DNA of 64,000 bases from the NCBI RefSeq assembly GCF_006912135.1, contig NZ_VIRS01000004.1, forward strand, positions 248,001-312,000. The letters run 5' to 3'. A program made the position numbers and the translations under genes. Positions within the stretch are counted from its first letter, which is position 1; each line of letters begins with the position of its first letter. Below the pieces are notes generated by a model that searched no databases, was not told the DNA's origin, and was given only the letters and a program-made list of their open reading frames with translations. This document shows positions 22,755-27,898 of the stretch, one piece after another. Origin of the DNA: Cryptosporangium phraense (lineage in GTDB: Bacteria; Actinomycetota; Actinomycetes; Mycobacteriales; Cryptosporangiaceae).

Positions 22755-23555
22755 GTGCGTCGACCGGCCCTATTCGCGGTGGCTCTCGCAGCCGCCGCGT
22801 CGATGCTTCTCACGGGCTGCGGCTCGGACGACAGCAGCGACACGTCGAGCAACTCGTCCGCGTCGGCCAGCGCGGACTCGGTGAAGGGCACCGTCACGGT
22901 CTTCGCCGCCGCGTCGCTCACCGAGTCGTTCACGACGCTCGGCAAGCAGTTCGAGCAGGCGCACCCGGGCGTCACCGTCAAGTTCAACTTCGCGGCCAGC
23001 TCGGCCTTGGCCGAGAGCATCGGCCAAGGCGCCCCGGCCGACGTCTTCGCCTCCGCGTCCCAGAAGAACATGGACGCGGTCGTGAAGGACGGCAGCGCCA
23101 CCGACCCGAAGACGTTCGTGCAGAACACGATGGAGATCGCGGTGCCGCCGGACAACCCCGGCAAGGTGACCGCGCTCGCCGACCTGAGCAAGCCCGGCCT
23201 GAAGATCGCGCTCTGCCAGGAGCAGGTGCCGTGTGGCGCCACCGCCAAGAAGGTCCTGGACAAGGCCAAGATCACGGTGAAGCCGAAGACGCTCGGCGCG
23301 GACGTGAAGGCGGTGCTCACCACGATCTCGCTGGGTGAGGTCGACGCCGGCATCGTCTACAAGACCGACGTTCAGGCCGCCGGCACCAAGGTCAAGGGCA
23401 TCGAGATCCCGGCCGACCAGAACGCCTCCACGTCGTACCCGATCGCCACGCTGTCGAAGGCGCCGAACGCCGACGGCGCGAAGGCGTTCATGGAGTACGT
23501 GCTCTCCGCCGACGGCACCAAGGTCCTCGAGGCGGCCGGCTTCACCGCTCCGTGA
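22755..23555 (+). CDS. modA: Molybdate ABC transporter substrate-binding lipoprotein
   Basis: 266-residue extracytoplasmic lipoprotein capturing molybdate (or tungstate). Signal peptide with lipobox LLTGC at about 18-22 and a Ser/Asp-rich spacer. ModA signatures: VFAAASLTESFTTLG, the FAASSALAESIGQGAPADVF segment with the oxyanion-binding serines, and GEVDAGIVYKTDV near the C terminus. GTG start with CTGGAGGT just upstream. Its stop overlaps the modB start. Confidence 0.94.
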   Translation: MRRPALFAVALAAAASMLLTGCGSDDSSDTSSNSSASASADSVKGTVTVFAAASLTESFTTLGKQFEQAHPGVTVKFNFAASSALAESIGQGAPADVFASASQKNMDAVVKDGSATDPKTFVQNTMEIAVPPDNPGKVTALADLSKPGLKIALCQEQVPCGATAKKVLDKAKITVKPKTLGADVKAVLTTISLGEVDAGIVYKTDVQAAGTKVKGIEIPADQNASTSYPIATLSKAPNADGAKAFMEYVLSADGTKVLEAAGFTAP

Positions 23556-24424
23556 GCGACGGTTCCGGCGCGCCCGCAGAGGAATTGGCGGGCGCGCCCC
23601 AGCCGCGCCGGGGCGGCGCCCCCCTCCAGCGGCGCCGGGGCGGCGCCCCGGCGCCGCTGATGGTGCCCGCGGTCATCGCGATCGTCTTCCTCGTGCTGCC
23701 GCTGCTCGGCCTGCTGATCCGCGCGCCCTGGTCGGCGCTCCCCCAACTGCTGCGCGACCCGCTCGTCTTCGAGGCGCTGAAACTCTCGCTGATCAGCGCG
23801 GTCCTCGCCACCGCGATCTCCCTCGTCTTCGGCGTCCCGCTGGCCTGGGTGCTGGCCCGGGCCGAGTTCCCCGGCAAGACGCTCCTGCGCGCCCTGGTGA
23901 CGGTCCCGCTCGTGCTGCCGCCGGTCGTCGGCGGCGTCGCGCTGCTGCTCGCGTTCGGACGCCGGGGCATCGTCGGCAAGTACCTCGACGCCTGGTTCGG
24001 CTACACGATCCCGTTCACCACGACGGCCGTCGTCCTGGCCGAGACGTTCGTCGCGATGCCGTTCCTGATCCTCACCGTGGAAGGCGCGCTCCGGGCCGCG
24101 GACCGACGCTACGAGGAGGCGAGCGCGAGCCTCGGCGCCGGCCGCTGGACCACGTTCCGCCGGATCACGCTGCCGCTGGTCGCCCCGTCGGTGCTGGCCG
24201 GCGCGGTGCTGTGCTGGGCCCGCGCGCTGGGCGAGTTCGGCGCGACGATCACGTTCGCGGGCAACTTCCCCGGCACCACCCAGACGATGCCGCTCGCGGT
24301 CTACCTGGCGCTGGAGAACGACCCCGACGCGGCGATCGCGCTCTCGCTGGTGCTGCTGGCCGTCTCCGTGGTGATCCTCGCGGCCCTTCGGGACCGCGTC
24401 GTCCGGACGGGCACCGGCGCATGA
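23552..24424 (+). CDS. modB: Molybdate ABC transporter permease
   Basis: 290 residues. A Pro/Gly/Arg-rich cytoplasmic N terminus (about 35 residues) precedes five to six membrane helices; EAA loop seen as EEASASLGAGRWTTFRRITLPL. GTG start inside the modA stop (GTGA). The N-terminal extension is encoded by a tandem 18-base GC repeat (GCGCCGGGGCGGCGCCCC at 23605 and 23632, period 27), giving QPRRGGAP and QRRRGGAP in tandem; probably a local duplication with no transport role. Confidence 0.93.
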   Translation: MSDGSGAPAEELAGAPQPRRGGAPLQRRRGGAPAPLMVPAVIAIVFLVLPLLGLLIRAPWSALPQLLRDPLVFEALKLSLISAVLATAISLVFGVPLAWVLARAEFPGKTLLRALVTVPLVLPPVVGGVALLLAFGRRGIVGKYLDAWFGYTIPFTTTAVVLAETFVAMPFLILTVEGALRAADRRYEEASASLGAGRWTTFRRITLPLVAPSVLAGAVLCWARALGEFGATITFAGNFPGTTQTMPLAVYLALENDPDAAIALSLVLLAVSVVILAALRDRVVRTGTGA

Positions 24425-25461
24425 GCCTCCTAGCCCACGTCCGCGTCGAGCGACCGACCTTCACTCTGGACGTCCGGCTGCACGCCGACGACGGGCAGGT
24501 GCTCGGCGTGATCGGCCCCAACGGGGCCGGCAAGACGACGCTGCTGCGCGGGCTCGCCGGCCTCACCCCGACGACCGGCGGGCGCATCGAGCTCAACGGG
24601 CGGGTCCTCGACGGCGTCCGGACCGAGGACCGCCGGATCGGCCTGGTCTTCCAGGACTACCTGCTGTTCCCGCACCTCTCGGCGCTGGAGAACGTGGCCT
24701 ACGGGCCGCGGGTGCAGGGCACGCCCAAGCGGGAGGCCCGGGAGACCGCGAGAGAGTGGCTGATGCGCGTCGGGCTGGAAGACCACGCGGGCAGGAAGCC
24801 GGGGCAGCTCTCCGGCGGCCAGTCGCAGCGCGTGGCCCTCGCCCGGGCGCTGGCCACCGACCCCGACCTGCTGCTGCTCGACGAGCCGCTGTCCGCGCTC
24901 GACGCCGGCACCCGGCTACGGCTGCGCACCGACCTGCGGACGCACCTGACGTCGTACGGCGGCCCGTCGCTGGTGATCACGCACGACCCGATCGAGGCGA
25001 TGATCCTGGCCGACCGGCTGGTCGTGCTGGAGGACGGCCGAATCGTCCAACAAGGCTCGGCGACCGAGGTCACGCGCCGACCGGCGACGGATTACGTCGC
25101 TCGTCTCGTCGGCCTGAACCTGTACCGAGGGAGCGCCGCCGACGGACGGGTGGCGATCAGGTCCGGTGGCGAGTTCGTCATCACCGACCGGGACCTGAGC
25201 GGACCGGTCCACGCGGCCGTCCGGCCCTCGGAGATCGCGGTCTACCGCGAGGAACCCACCCACGGCAGCCCACGCAACACCTGGCGCGGCCGGATCACCG
25301 GCGTCGAGGCGCTGGGCGATCGGATCCGGATAGCCGTCGACGGCGAGCCACCGGCGCTGGTCGACGTGACGCCGGACGCTCTCGCCGACCTCGACCTCGC
25401 GGCCGGCCAGGACGTCTGGCTCACGGCCAAGGCCTCGGCGATCACCGCGTACCCGGCATGA
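24421..25461 (+). CDS. modC: Molybdate ABC transporter ATP-binding protein
   Basis: 346 residues. Walker A GPNGAGKTT, Q loop VFQDYLLF, signature LSGGQSQRVALARAL, Walker B LLLLDEPLSALD, H switch VITHDPIEA; C-terminal TOBE-like molybdate-binding domain (about 280-345, with NTWRGRITGVEALGDRIRI). ATG overlaps the modB stop. Energises uptake with ModAB. Substrate assignment rests on the ModA and ModB signatures and the Mop regulator upstream. Confidence 0.93.
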   Translation: MSLLAHVRVERPTFTLDVRLHADDGQVLGVIGPNGAGKTTLLRGLAGLTPTTGGRIELNGRVLDGVRTEDRRIGLVFQDYLLFPHLSALENVAYGPRVQGTPKREARETAREWLMRVGLEDHAGRKPGQLSGGQSQRVALARALATDPDLLLLDEPLSALDAGTRLRLRTDLRTHLTSYGGPSLVITHDPIEAMILADRLVVLEDGRIVQQGSATEVTRRPATDYVARLVGLNLYRGSAADGRVAIRSGGEFVITDRDLSGPVHAAVRPSEIAVYREEPTHGSPRNTWRGRITGVEALGDRIRIAVDGEPPALVDVTPDALADLDLAAGQDVWLTAKASAITAYPA

Positions 25462-25507: not shown

Positions 25508-26593
25508 CTACAGGCCCCAGTCCATCCGCGGGACGACCGCGGTCTTGACCGAGAACTGGCCGAGGTCCTCGACGCCCGAGGTGTCTTCCCGGTCCTCCTC
25601 GCGCGCCTTCACGACGTGCTTGCCGAACTTGTCGACGAGCGGCCGGTCGCTGTTCCGCTTCAGCCACAGACGCAGCAGGTGACGCTTGCGGCCGTACTGC
25701 GGGTAGTCGATGAACGCGGTCCGCGAGTGCAGAGCGGCGTAGTTCGAGACCCACTGGATGTCACCGGGCTGGAAGTCCATGTCCAGCGCCATGCCCGGCT
25801 CGTAGGTGATCTCGTCGAACAGGCGGATGACCTCGATCTGCGCGTCGGTCAGACGCGGGGTCTCGGGGTAGTCCTGCGCGGTGAAGATGTACGTCGAGCC
25901 GGCGTACATGCTGAACACGCCGTCCTTGATGCTGACGATCGGAGAGGTGTACGTCTTCTCCGGAGCGTCGTGGTCCTGCTTGTACCAGTCGAAGTAGAAC
26001 GGCTCGTGCAGCAGCGGGGCCAGGTCGGGGCGGCGCGACAGGATCTCGTTGTAGATCTGCGCACCGGAGACCAGGCTGGACGCGCCACCCTCCTTGGCCG
26101 GGCGGAGGCAGAACAGCGCCACCGCGTCCGAGCTGTCGGAGTGGAACACCAGCTTGTCGGCGACCCGCGACGACAGCGCCGACGGGTCGTCCATCGTCTT
26201 CGTCGAGGTGGCGATGACGTGGTCGATCAGGTCGGCCAGCTCGTTCTGCTTCATCGGCACGCCGAGGTGCAGGCCGGTGAGGTAGAAGATCGCGCCGGAG
26301 AGCGCGTCCGAGTAGAGCTCGGTCTTCAGGCCCCGGATCAGCACGAAGCCACGACCGCGGTCCATGTCGTACGCCCACTGCTCGATCGCCGGGGCGCAGA
26401 CCGGCAGCGGGTAGTCCGCCTTGGTCACCGTACGGAGGTCGGGGTCGTCCTCGACGAACTGGCGGCCGACGGCCTCGAGCTCGGCGATCTCGGCGTCGTT
26501 CAGCTGGTAGATCCAGGTCTTCTCGTTCTGCAGCTGGTCGCCGCGCCAGGCTGCCGGCCCGGTGACCGGGGACAGGTCCGTGGTGACGGTCAT
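25508..26593 (-). CDS. TauD/TfdA-family Fe(II)/2-oxoglutarate dioxygenase
   Basis: 361 residues. Non-heme iron triad: H151 and D153 in VFHSDSSDAVAL, H289 in AALHSRTAF; 2-oxoglutarate-binding Arg in RHLLRLWL (R308). The family hydroxylates or cleaves ethers, sulfonates, betaines or amino-acid-like compounds with O2 and 2-oxoglutarate. The N-terminal 60 residues are longer than in TauD and resemble the clavaminate-synthase-like subgroup. ATG with a close GGAGAAACC upstream. Transcribed in the same direction as the SnoaL and VOC genes but separated from them by a giant palindrome. Substrate unknown. Confidence 0.9.
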   Translation of the reverse strand: MTVTTDLSPVTGPAAWRGDQLQNEKTWIYQLNDAEIAELEAVGRQFVEDDPDLRTVTKADYPLPVCAPAIEQWAYDMDRGRGFVLIRGLKTELYSDALSGAIFYLTGLHLGVPMKQNELADLIDHVIATSTKTMDDPSALSSRVADKLVFHSDSSDAVALFCLRPAKEGGASSLVSGAQIYNEILSRRPDLAPLLHEPFYFDWYKQDHDAPEKTYTSPIVSIKDGVFSMYAGSTYIFTAQDYPETPRLTDAQIEVIRLFDEITYEPGMALDMDFQPGDIQWVSNYAALHSRTAFIDYPQYGRKRHLLRLWLKRNSDRPLVDKFGKHVVKAREEDREDTSGVEDLGQFSVKTAVVPRMDWGL

Positions 26594-26655
26594 CGTGGTT
26601 TCTCCTCAGACGTGTACTTCAAAGCCCAGCCGGATCACACCGGCGAGTCGGGCCA

Positions 26656-26821
26656 GGTCGTGTTTCACAGGTTCAGGTCGCCGTGGGCGTGGTCCAGGCG
26701 GCGATCCGGCAAGGCGGAGGTCTGTCCGGATACCGCTGTTGTATCCGGACAGACCTCCAACGCAGTCCGGTCGTCGTCTGGGCCGCGGCCACGGCGAGCT
26801 GCTGGCCTGTGAAGCACGACC
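26656..26821 (+). repeat. Long imperfect palindrome, possible hairpin RNA
   Basis: Left arm 26656-26733 and right arm 26741-26821 fold on a 7-base loop. The inner 18 bp (GGAGGTCTGTCCGGATAC) are perfect; beyond two short internal loops, about 45 further positions pair out to the ends. The five single transitions (26663, 26690, 26693, 26698, 26701) are all T-G or G-T across the stem, which a plus-strand RNA would keep as G-U pairs while the minus-strand RNA would have A-C mismatches; one further difference (26687) is G-G. It begins directly at the SnoaL stop. No transposase and no target duplication at the ends. Confidence 0.75.
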
Positions 26822-27195
26822 TAGATTTGTTGCTCGACGGTCTTGCCGTCCCAGTAGTCCCGGCGGTGGGCGATGAGCCCGTCCTCGACCCGGAACCAGA
26901 ACATCCCGCGTACCGAGACCGGTTTGCCGTGCAGCCGGAACGACATCCGGTAGGCGACGGCGGCGCGGTCGTCGTCGACCAGCAGGTCTTCGACGTCGTA
27001 GTGCAGGTTCTCGAACTCGGCGAGGAAACCGCCGAGGCGTTCCCGGTAGGCCGCCCGGCTCCTCAGGCTGCGGCCGGCGGCGGACGTGTGCTCGTTGACG
27101 AAGTCGTCGGTCACACACGCCGCCACCGCGTCGGCGTCCCCGGCGTTCAGCGCGGCCAGGTAACGCTCGATGATCTCGCGGATCAGTTGCCCCAC
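26821..27195 (-). CDS. SnoaL-like (NTF2-fold) protein
   Basis: 124 residues with RYLAALNAGDADAVAACV, DDFVNEHTSAAG, LHYDVEDLLVDDDRAAVAYR and GMFWFRVEDGLIAHRRDYWD, the hallmark of SnoaL/ketosteroid-isomerase-like proteins. Fold members are isomerases, dehydratases, cyclases or small subunits; no specific activity can be deduced. GTG start overlaps the end of the VOC gene by 13 bases, so the two are co-translated. Its stop codon abuts the long palindrome. Confidence 0.8.
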   Translation of the reverse strand: MGQLIREIIERYLAALNAGDADAVAACVTDDFVNEHTSAAGRSLRSRAAYRERLGGFLAEFENLHYDVEDLLVDDDRAAVAYRMSFRLHGKPVSVRGMFWFRVEDGLIAHRRDYWDGKTVEQQI

Positions 27196-27638
27196 TTCTC
27201 GCGGATCGTCGAGAAGACCTTCTGGTTGTGGGAGATCTCGATGACGTTGCCGTCGGGGTCCTTCAGCGCGCAGACGTAGCCGACCTGGCCGCCGATGTCC
27301 TGCGGCTCCCAGTGCAGGTTGCCCATCTCGCGGGCCTTGGCCGCGATCGCGTCGACGTCCTCGCGGTTCGGCACCTCGATGCCGATGTGCGCGAACGGCG
27401 TGAGCTGGCCGTGCGTACCGCCGTGGTCCTTGTTGAAGTCGACCAGGACCAGCACGAACGGGCTGTCGACCTGCTTGTCGTGGGACAGCCACGCGCTCTG
27501 GCCGTCGTCGTCCTTGAAGCGCTCCAGCACGACCAGCGGCGTCAGGGAGGTGTAGAACTCGATGGACTTGTCGAGGTCACCGGCCGGCAACGCGACATGC
27601 GTCCACCGTGCCTGCGTCAACTTCGTGTCGTCCGCCAC
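27183..27638 (-). CDS. VOC-superfamily (glyoxalase/dioxygenase-like) protein
   Basis: 151 residues, one VOC unit of two beta-alpha-beta-beta-beta modules: RWTHVALPAGDLDKSIEFYT at the start, FAHIGIEVPNREDVDAI in the middle, DPDGNVIEISHN at the end. Candidate metal ligands H (WTHVAL), H (FAHIGI) and E (VIEIS) are present. GTG start with AGGAG 8 bases upstream. VOC proteins include lyases, extradiol dioxygenases, epimerases and resistance proteins; none can be chosen. Starts the VOC-SnoaL transcript; the 260 bases upstream toward the aldo/keto reductase show no clear operator. Confidence 0.85.
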   Translation of the reverse strand: MADDTKLTQARWTHVALPAGDLDKSIEFYTSLTPLVVLERFKDDDGQSAWLSHDKQVDSPFVLVLVDFNKDHGGTHGQLTPFAHIGIEVPNREDVDAIAAKAREMGNLHWEPQDIGGQVGYVCALKDPDGNVIEISHNQKVFSTIREKWGN

Positions 27639-27898
27639 GGGGGTACTCCTCTTCGATTCAGCCCTGGCCCTACGCTCTGGCGTTAGGACCACCGTACTGA
27701 GGGCGCCATACGGCCTGAATGTGCCGGGGGGACAAAGAACTGCGTCACACTCTGCCCCCGCACCACATCAGCGCGCCGGGCCGTCTGTGCAAAGGTTCTG
27801 ACGTATCGGTTTGCGCGTGGTTCCCAGCGCCCAATGGGGCCGGCCCTCGCGTGCCGGTCTCCCTGCGCACGGGGGCGTTCCGCAGGAGAGGACATCCG

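Follow-up and report, generated by a model that had tools for sequence, protein, structure and literature searches.

A dispersed palindromic element of Cryptosporangium phraense and its relatives, probably a hairpin MITE, with pairing biased to one strand

Why should a long hairpin, paired better on one DNA strand than on the other, begin exactly at the stop codon of a gene in Cryptosporangium phraense? In the window (the whole 64,000-nucleotide stretch analysed, positions 248,001 to 312,000 of contig NZ_VIRS01000004.1), the palindrome occupies 166 bp at 26656-26821, which is exact for the element without its TA flanks. This is where the original prediction had put it, and its perfectly paired inner stem of 18 bp (26716-26733 with 26741-26758, plus strand) and 7-base loop (26734-26740) were also correctly described. 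The element lies between two minus-strand genes, a SnoaL-like gene (26821-27492, the open frame as listed, the domain being its last ~120 codons) and, downstream of the element, a gene for a TauD/TfdA-family dioxygenase (25508-26593); upstream of SnoaL is a glyoxalase/VOC-family gene (27183-27692, minus strand). Three overlapping plus-strand frames at 22755-25461 resemble, as read from their translations, the substrate-binding protein, permease, and ATPase of a molybdate-type ABC transporter.

When the left arm was compared, blind to strand, with the reverse complement of the right arm, 65 positions were Watson-Crick pairs, four were transversions, and seven were transitions, all of them G-T on the plus strand and none A-C. 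One-way transitions had been claimed for five of five differences; the count is now seven of seven. Folded as RNA, the plus strand of 26640-26840 reaches -152.5 kcal/mol (z -14.78) and the minus strand -124.4 kcal/mol (z -11.27), with 0 of 200 shuffles as good in either case. Rfam gave no match at the gathering score in the window or in 14 element loci; its best sub-threshold match, EBv-sisRNA-2 (32.5 bits, cut-off 41.8, E 0.0018), was attributed to chance, the hairpin being long and GC-rich.

The palindrome is one of many. Searches of the genome and its relatives, which the original prediction had called for, revealed 12 further full-length copies in the window genome (8.46 Mb, 87 contigs), and others in congeners G002 and G003, in the more distant G025, and in Amycolatopsis marina; the sole, weak match in congener G001 was not an element. 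The window copy belongs to family A, of which the same genome holds five other near-full-length copies and one deleted copy of 105 bp. Six elements of this genome that matched only centrally turned out to be full-length elements with different outer arms, i.e., a second family, and an end of that family used as a query yielded one more full-length copy and three short derivatives. Motifs recognized in the copies themselves served to fix where each one ends. From 40 candidate copies (G000, G002, G003, G025, and A. marina), three without clear ends (G3_C17c, G2_a, and G2_b) were dropped and the deleted G0_C73 was added, giving a first set of 38. A second set, from other genera, comprised 48 copies, 30 of which had TA-bounded ends; these include one misbounded copy (L216) and one duplicate place (L226/L246), whose removal by hand left 29 distinct copies. 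A further set contains the 74 of 82 fetched matches that could be bounded (7 of 20 matches in G187, 2 of 29 in G312, and all 23 in G207 were not fetched), and several of its rows, most of them from G312 and 165-192 bp long, have visibly wrong borders. Element length is narrowly distributed, at 163-165 bp in 24 of the 38 copies and 160-162 bp in 49 of the 74.

Relatives recognized by a model of the conserved core, built from the first set of 29 aligned cores, occur in at least 39 of 394 class genomes and at least 18 of 138 genera, which are lower bounds because 11 candidates were scored per genome; eight genomes searched more deeply contained 3 to 29 copies each. A related core was also present on three Streptomyces plasmid records (NZ_CP109119.1, NZ_CP109120.1, and NZ_CP108509.1), the first of which carries a full element (L199, core at 102856-102936) with ends TAAGGGCTGTCCCGTAAT. 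The exact loop pattern was found in 12 stretches of named genomes. Three are from A. marina, two of them full hairpins (L062 and L064) and one partly visible at the edge of its locus (L060); eight from Mycobacterium, Mycolicibacterium, and Nocardia, which have near-identical surroundings, and one from a Ruminococcus MAG lack the long hairpin and were rejected.

The borders indicate how the copies arrived. The terminal inverted repeats of the window element, GGTCGTGTTTCACAGGTT at 26656-26673 on the plus strand and its counterpart at 26804-26821 on the minus strand, recur in dispersed copies, and typical elements are preceded by YTA and followed by TAR, as expected for a TA duplication within a CTAG-like target. 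Among the 38 copies, TA is present on the left of 34, on the right of 30, and on both sides of 27; CTAG stands at the left border of 21 and at the right border of 19 of the 29 distinct copies in the second set. The window copy has its right-hand TA at 26822-26823, within CTAG at 26821-26824, and CA in place of the expected left-hand TA at 26654-26655, presumably a decayed TA. In congeners G001, G002, and G003, the orthologous SnoaL-TauD junction can be aligned to the left and right of the insertion and carries no element, although these congeners differ by small indels at the junction and the exact pre-insertion CTAG of the window site is uncertain. Dispersed copies, TA duplications, and an empty site together bear out what had been offered as the second of two alternatives, a mobile palindromic element. 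The original prediction supposed that mobility of this kind would tell against selection on one strand, but here both hold.

Insertion would also account for the position at the stop codon. As had been noticed, the element borders on the SnoaL stop: the TAG (26823-26821, minus strand) consists of the flanking TA and the last base of the element. A simple ORF caller, which missed the SnoaL stop of the window itself, scored 22 of the 38 copies as forming a TAG or TAA stop for an adjacent gene at their border. The position at the SnoaL stop would follow from a CTAG-like target with TA duplication, together with tolerance of insertions that preserve a stop. Insertion would occur into YTAR, mostly CTAG, duplicating the TA; where the CTAG includes a TAG stop, or a stop common to two convergent genes, the stop would be kept intact, and copies would survive at gene ends for that reason. 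Relative to the core strand, the genes around the 38 copies are convergent in 19 cases, both antisense in eight, both sense in six, and divergent in five; the corresponding numbers for the 29 distinct copies of the second set are 12, 8, 6, and 3.

What the families have in common is a core of ~83 positions (26695-26779 in the window, plus strand) under differing outer arms. It includes a conserved AAG bulge (26711-26713) and an internal loop whose right side (26756-26760) is TCCAA in the window copy and GACAA in most copies; GCAAGGCGGAGG (left) and CGACAACGC (right) are near-fixed, and in many rows GA steps repeatedly face GA steps. Alignment A1 contains 36 of the 38 copies and alignment A2 29 of those 36. 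The covariance analysis that had been proposed showed strong covariation: over 29 aligned cores, 97.2% of cells are paired and both sides have changed at 14 of 30 pairs, and over 33 divergent cores, 89.5% of cells are paired with double changes at 24 of 30 pairs, in both cases beyond all 500 shuffles. The inner stem beside the internal loop varies with full compensation between similar copies (L085, L086, L087, and L088 of G002; A2 columns 26-31), as if pairing alone mattered there. A variant apical loop, ~14 bases longer and with its own small stem, recurs in several families and genomes (L012, L098, L074, L080, and L088). Palindromes of 41-74 bp with intact family B ends but no core were also seen in the window genome (L100, L106, and L108), G002 (L178, L180, and L189), and G003 (L183). 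Each is apparently single in its genome, and L100 and L180, from different genomes, have the same inner junction. Their single-copy state fits a need for the core, but deletion in situ explains them too.

A palindrome in DNA is of course expected to show covariation, but not a preference for one strand. Over the full arms, G-T outnumbers A-C by 234 to 99 in the 38 copies and by 477 to 149 in the 74; in the outer arms outside the core model, G-U outnumbers A-C by 105 to 32 (25 of 30 copies, those scoring at least 40). The core strand folds better than its complement in 30 of 30 copies of one set and 73 of 74 of another. The 33 divergent cores give 82 G-U to 6 A-C, in an alignment that itself leans to the structure. 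Because copies share ancestry, 110 of them were clustered at 80% identity, yielding 14 clusters, five of which are single copies: folding is better on the core strand in all 14, and the G-U to A-C ratio is 44:13 for the outer arms and 49:5 for the interior. The preference for one strand is real and extends across the family.

The bias could still be an accident. An ordinary IS5-type MITE might have started from a few ancestral sequences that happened to pair better on one strand, with later copies inheriting this and the folded strand serving no function; core pairs are indeed common by descent, cell counts are not independent, and target, ends, and helper account for the anatomy with no role for RNA or a single strand. 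We nevertheless judge this improbable. Outer arms are unrelated between families, yet the excess of G-U over A-C is found in them as well, both across the 14 clusters and in the 25 higher-scoring copies; moreover, the order of one core pair is reversed between two families, G-U against U-G. Changes that arose later, within clusters, and are common to several copies remain biased, with 114 Watson-Crick pairs altered to G-U and 35 to A-C in the nine clusters of at least four copies (105 of the 110 copies).

Consensus pairs of the same nine clusters stand at 64 G-U to 7 A-C. Changes private to a single copy are different, 30 to G-U and 26 to A-C. By Fisher's test against the private changes, p is 0.002 for the shared changes and 4e-6 for the consensus, cells being treated as independent though, through shared ancestry, they are not fully so. 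Individual clusters vary: in cluster A alone, private changes are 1 G-U to 8 A-C, and in one large G182 cluster (11 copies) shared changes are 13 to 13. Recent mutations in resident copies look strand-neutral overall, so the bias is not a product of mutation alone. From these counts, propagating lineages, and not resident copies, seem to have been under selection for the plus-strand hairpin; most economically, a good plus-strand hairpin marked out the copies that spread. The original prediction of a selected plus-strand hairpin RNA is supported, at the level of the family, as to the selected strand; as to the molecule, the counts do not tell RNA from single-stranded DNA.

The contrast between strand-neutral private changes and biased older ones favours a role in propagation and weighs against a host function maintained site by site. 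A plus-strand RNA hairpin serving the host as a terminator, attenuator, antisense RNA, or RNase III site would suit the very stable hairpin between SnoaL and TauD and the strong covariation of the core, and passages of a review of small bacterial MITEs report that related small repeats such as ERIC act on transcripts in an orientation-dependent manner (PMC2229807). Such a function is hard to reconcile with private changes that show no strand preference, with core strands that are sense in 12 and antisense in 16 of the copies between co-oriented genes (both sets pooled), or with a site that is empty in three congeners, and we regard it as unlikely. The empty site and the lack of an orientation preference speak in particular against the selected role first suggested, a transcript antisense to VOC-SnoaL-TauD, and antisense or cis-acting RNA control of the SnoaL-TauD operon was rejected as the main reading on those grounds and on the unbiased private changes.

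Orientation was also compared with the replication fork. In seven genomes pooled, 40 elements lie with the fork and 65 against it (p 0.019), an excess that comes mainly from G182, where the split is 2:13; in G002, G187, and G312 it is 4:4, 10:10, and 13:16. The G182 bias (13 of 15 elements against the fork) may be chance or a lineage effect. Movement by a REP/IS200-like (HUH/Y1) system that acts on a folded single strand of DNA, in place of a DDE transposase, would accommodate a strand-specific hairpin, the pooled fork orientation, and the TAG stops that GTAG-tagged REPs likewise lend to genes in the part of PMC3733652 consulted, but it is very improbable given TA on both sides of 27 of 38 copies, ends common to DDE transposons, and a fork bias owed mainly to one genome. 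The GTAG/CGTC-tagged palindrome of 20-40 bp that marks REPs and REPINs is not what we see here.

Insertion sequences with similar ends, candidate sources of the transposase, are present in several genomes. G002 has 27 matches to DUF4096 (24 above the cut-off), and 21 of the 23 fetched loci have inverted ends between TA. Two of its transposons (1780898-1781863 and 5826237-5827205) have the ends GGGCYTGTCCTGTGAATC between CTA and TAG. In the window genome, element G0_C2 matches these ends at 17 of 18 bases; in G002 itself, an element does so at 16 of 18. The transposase at L141 consists of two overlapping frames matching NF033580 (IS5 family), DUF4096, and DDE_Tnp_1. Five of six fetched DUF4096 loci in G227 have the ends GGGAGTGTCTGACGGATC, which match an element of G207, a genome of the same genus label, at 17 of 18 bases, while G227's own elements start GGGGGTGTCTGACGGA; one transposon end in G182 agrees at 16 of 18 with a G312 element. 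The closest transposon end to family A, that of the window copy, has 14 of 18 bases in common with it. None of the six DUF4096 loci in the window genome has TA-bounded inverted ends, and no matching helper was found there; matching ends were likewise found at 0 of 11 DUF4096 loci in G312, 0 of 2 in G071, and 0 of 1 in G001, while 2 of 10 in G187 have inverted ends, neither matching elements, and G177 has no DUF4096 match. The search centred on DUF4096, with other IS5 subtypes searched once, using PF13359. Some elements lie within ~0.7-1.2 kb of a DUF4096 transposase gene (L088 with L143, at 5338857 and 5339530 of G002; 8412234 and 8413027 of G002; 7201443 and 7202652 of G312).

Overall, the sequence comparisons make it likely that the element is a non-autonomous palindromic transposon, or hairpin MITE, moved in trans by IS5-type transposases, with a strand-specific plus-strand hairpin favoured in propagation. 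It is short, encodes no protein, and has many dispersed copies, terminal inverted repeats, a TA duplication, and an empty site; autonomous relatives share 17 of 18 end bases with two families and 14 of 18 with that of the window. Transposases of the IS5 kind (DUF4096 plus DDE_Tnp_1), supplied by insertion sequences with similar ends, would recognize the terminal repeats of the element. The lineages that spread would have kept pairs that work on the core strand, and private changes without strand preference would be those of copies already resident; the plus-strand hairpin would be needed in, or would favour, propagation.

Hairpin MITEs are known, and their pairing is usually attributed to their terminal repeats. 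Here, the presence of the core in at least 18 genera, the narrow range of lengths, and an old one-strand bias that private changes lack suggest that a folded single strand was selected while the element spread. We suggest tentatively that the plus-strand hairpin, in the form of RNA or single-stranded DNA, takes part in transposition itself, as a nucleic-acid cofactor or folded intermediate needed by an IS5-type DDE transposase or a host factor. The MITE lineage that carries it would have lasted across Actinobacteria under ends that match different insertion sequences, with its core and ~160-166 bp length kept. If this is true, a structure-dependent step would be added to DDE-type transposition. 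In any case, the family is a target for annotation, with up to 29 such repeats per genome, many of them at gene ends, in several actinobacterial genera. No description of it was found in the open-access literature searched.

Several known systems resemble the element in part. GTAG-tagged REP palindromes are likewise dispersed and frequently provide an adjacent gene with its TAG stop, but in the parts of PMC3733652 consulted, REPs are 20-40 bp, against ~160-166 bp with a TA duplication here; the words Actinobacteria, Streptomyces, and CTAG do not occur in the text of that paper. The Rickettsia palindromic elements and YPAL/RU-2 are dispersed long single stem-loops of 105-168 bp, but YPAL is without TA termini and the Rickettsia elements have hosts in another phylum, according to passages of PMC2229807. 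IS5-family insertion sequences with a DUF4096 transposase (NF033580, transpos_IS5_3) have the same CTA...TAG flanks and terminal repeats that agree at up to 17 of 18 bases; they differ in being 813-1019 bp long and transposase-bearing, and no palindrome or core was noted in them. Closest in general plan are Correia/NEMIS, ERIC/RU-1, and RUP, which are less than 200 bp long, encode no protein, have terminal inverted repeats and TA termini, are predicted to give long stem-loop transcripts, and are dispersed between genes; the passages of PMC2229807 that describe them name no actinobacterium. Unlike these, the present element is palindromic over nearly its whole length, has a core conserved across genera under different ends, has ends like those of IS5-type transposons, the putative helpers, and shows a strand bias that is old and absent from private changes.
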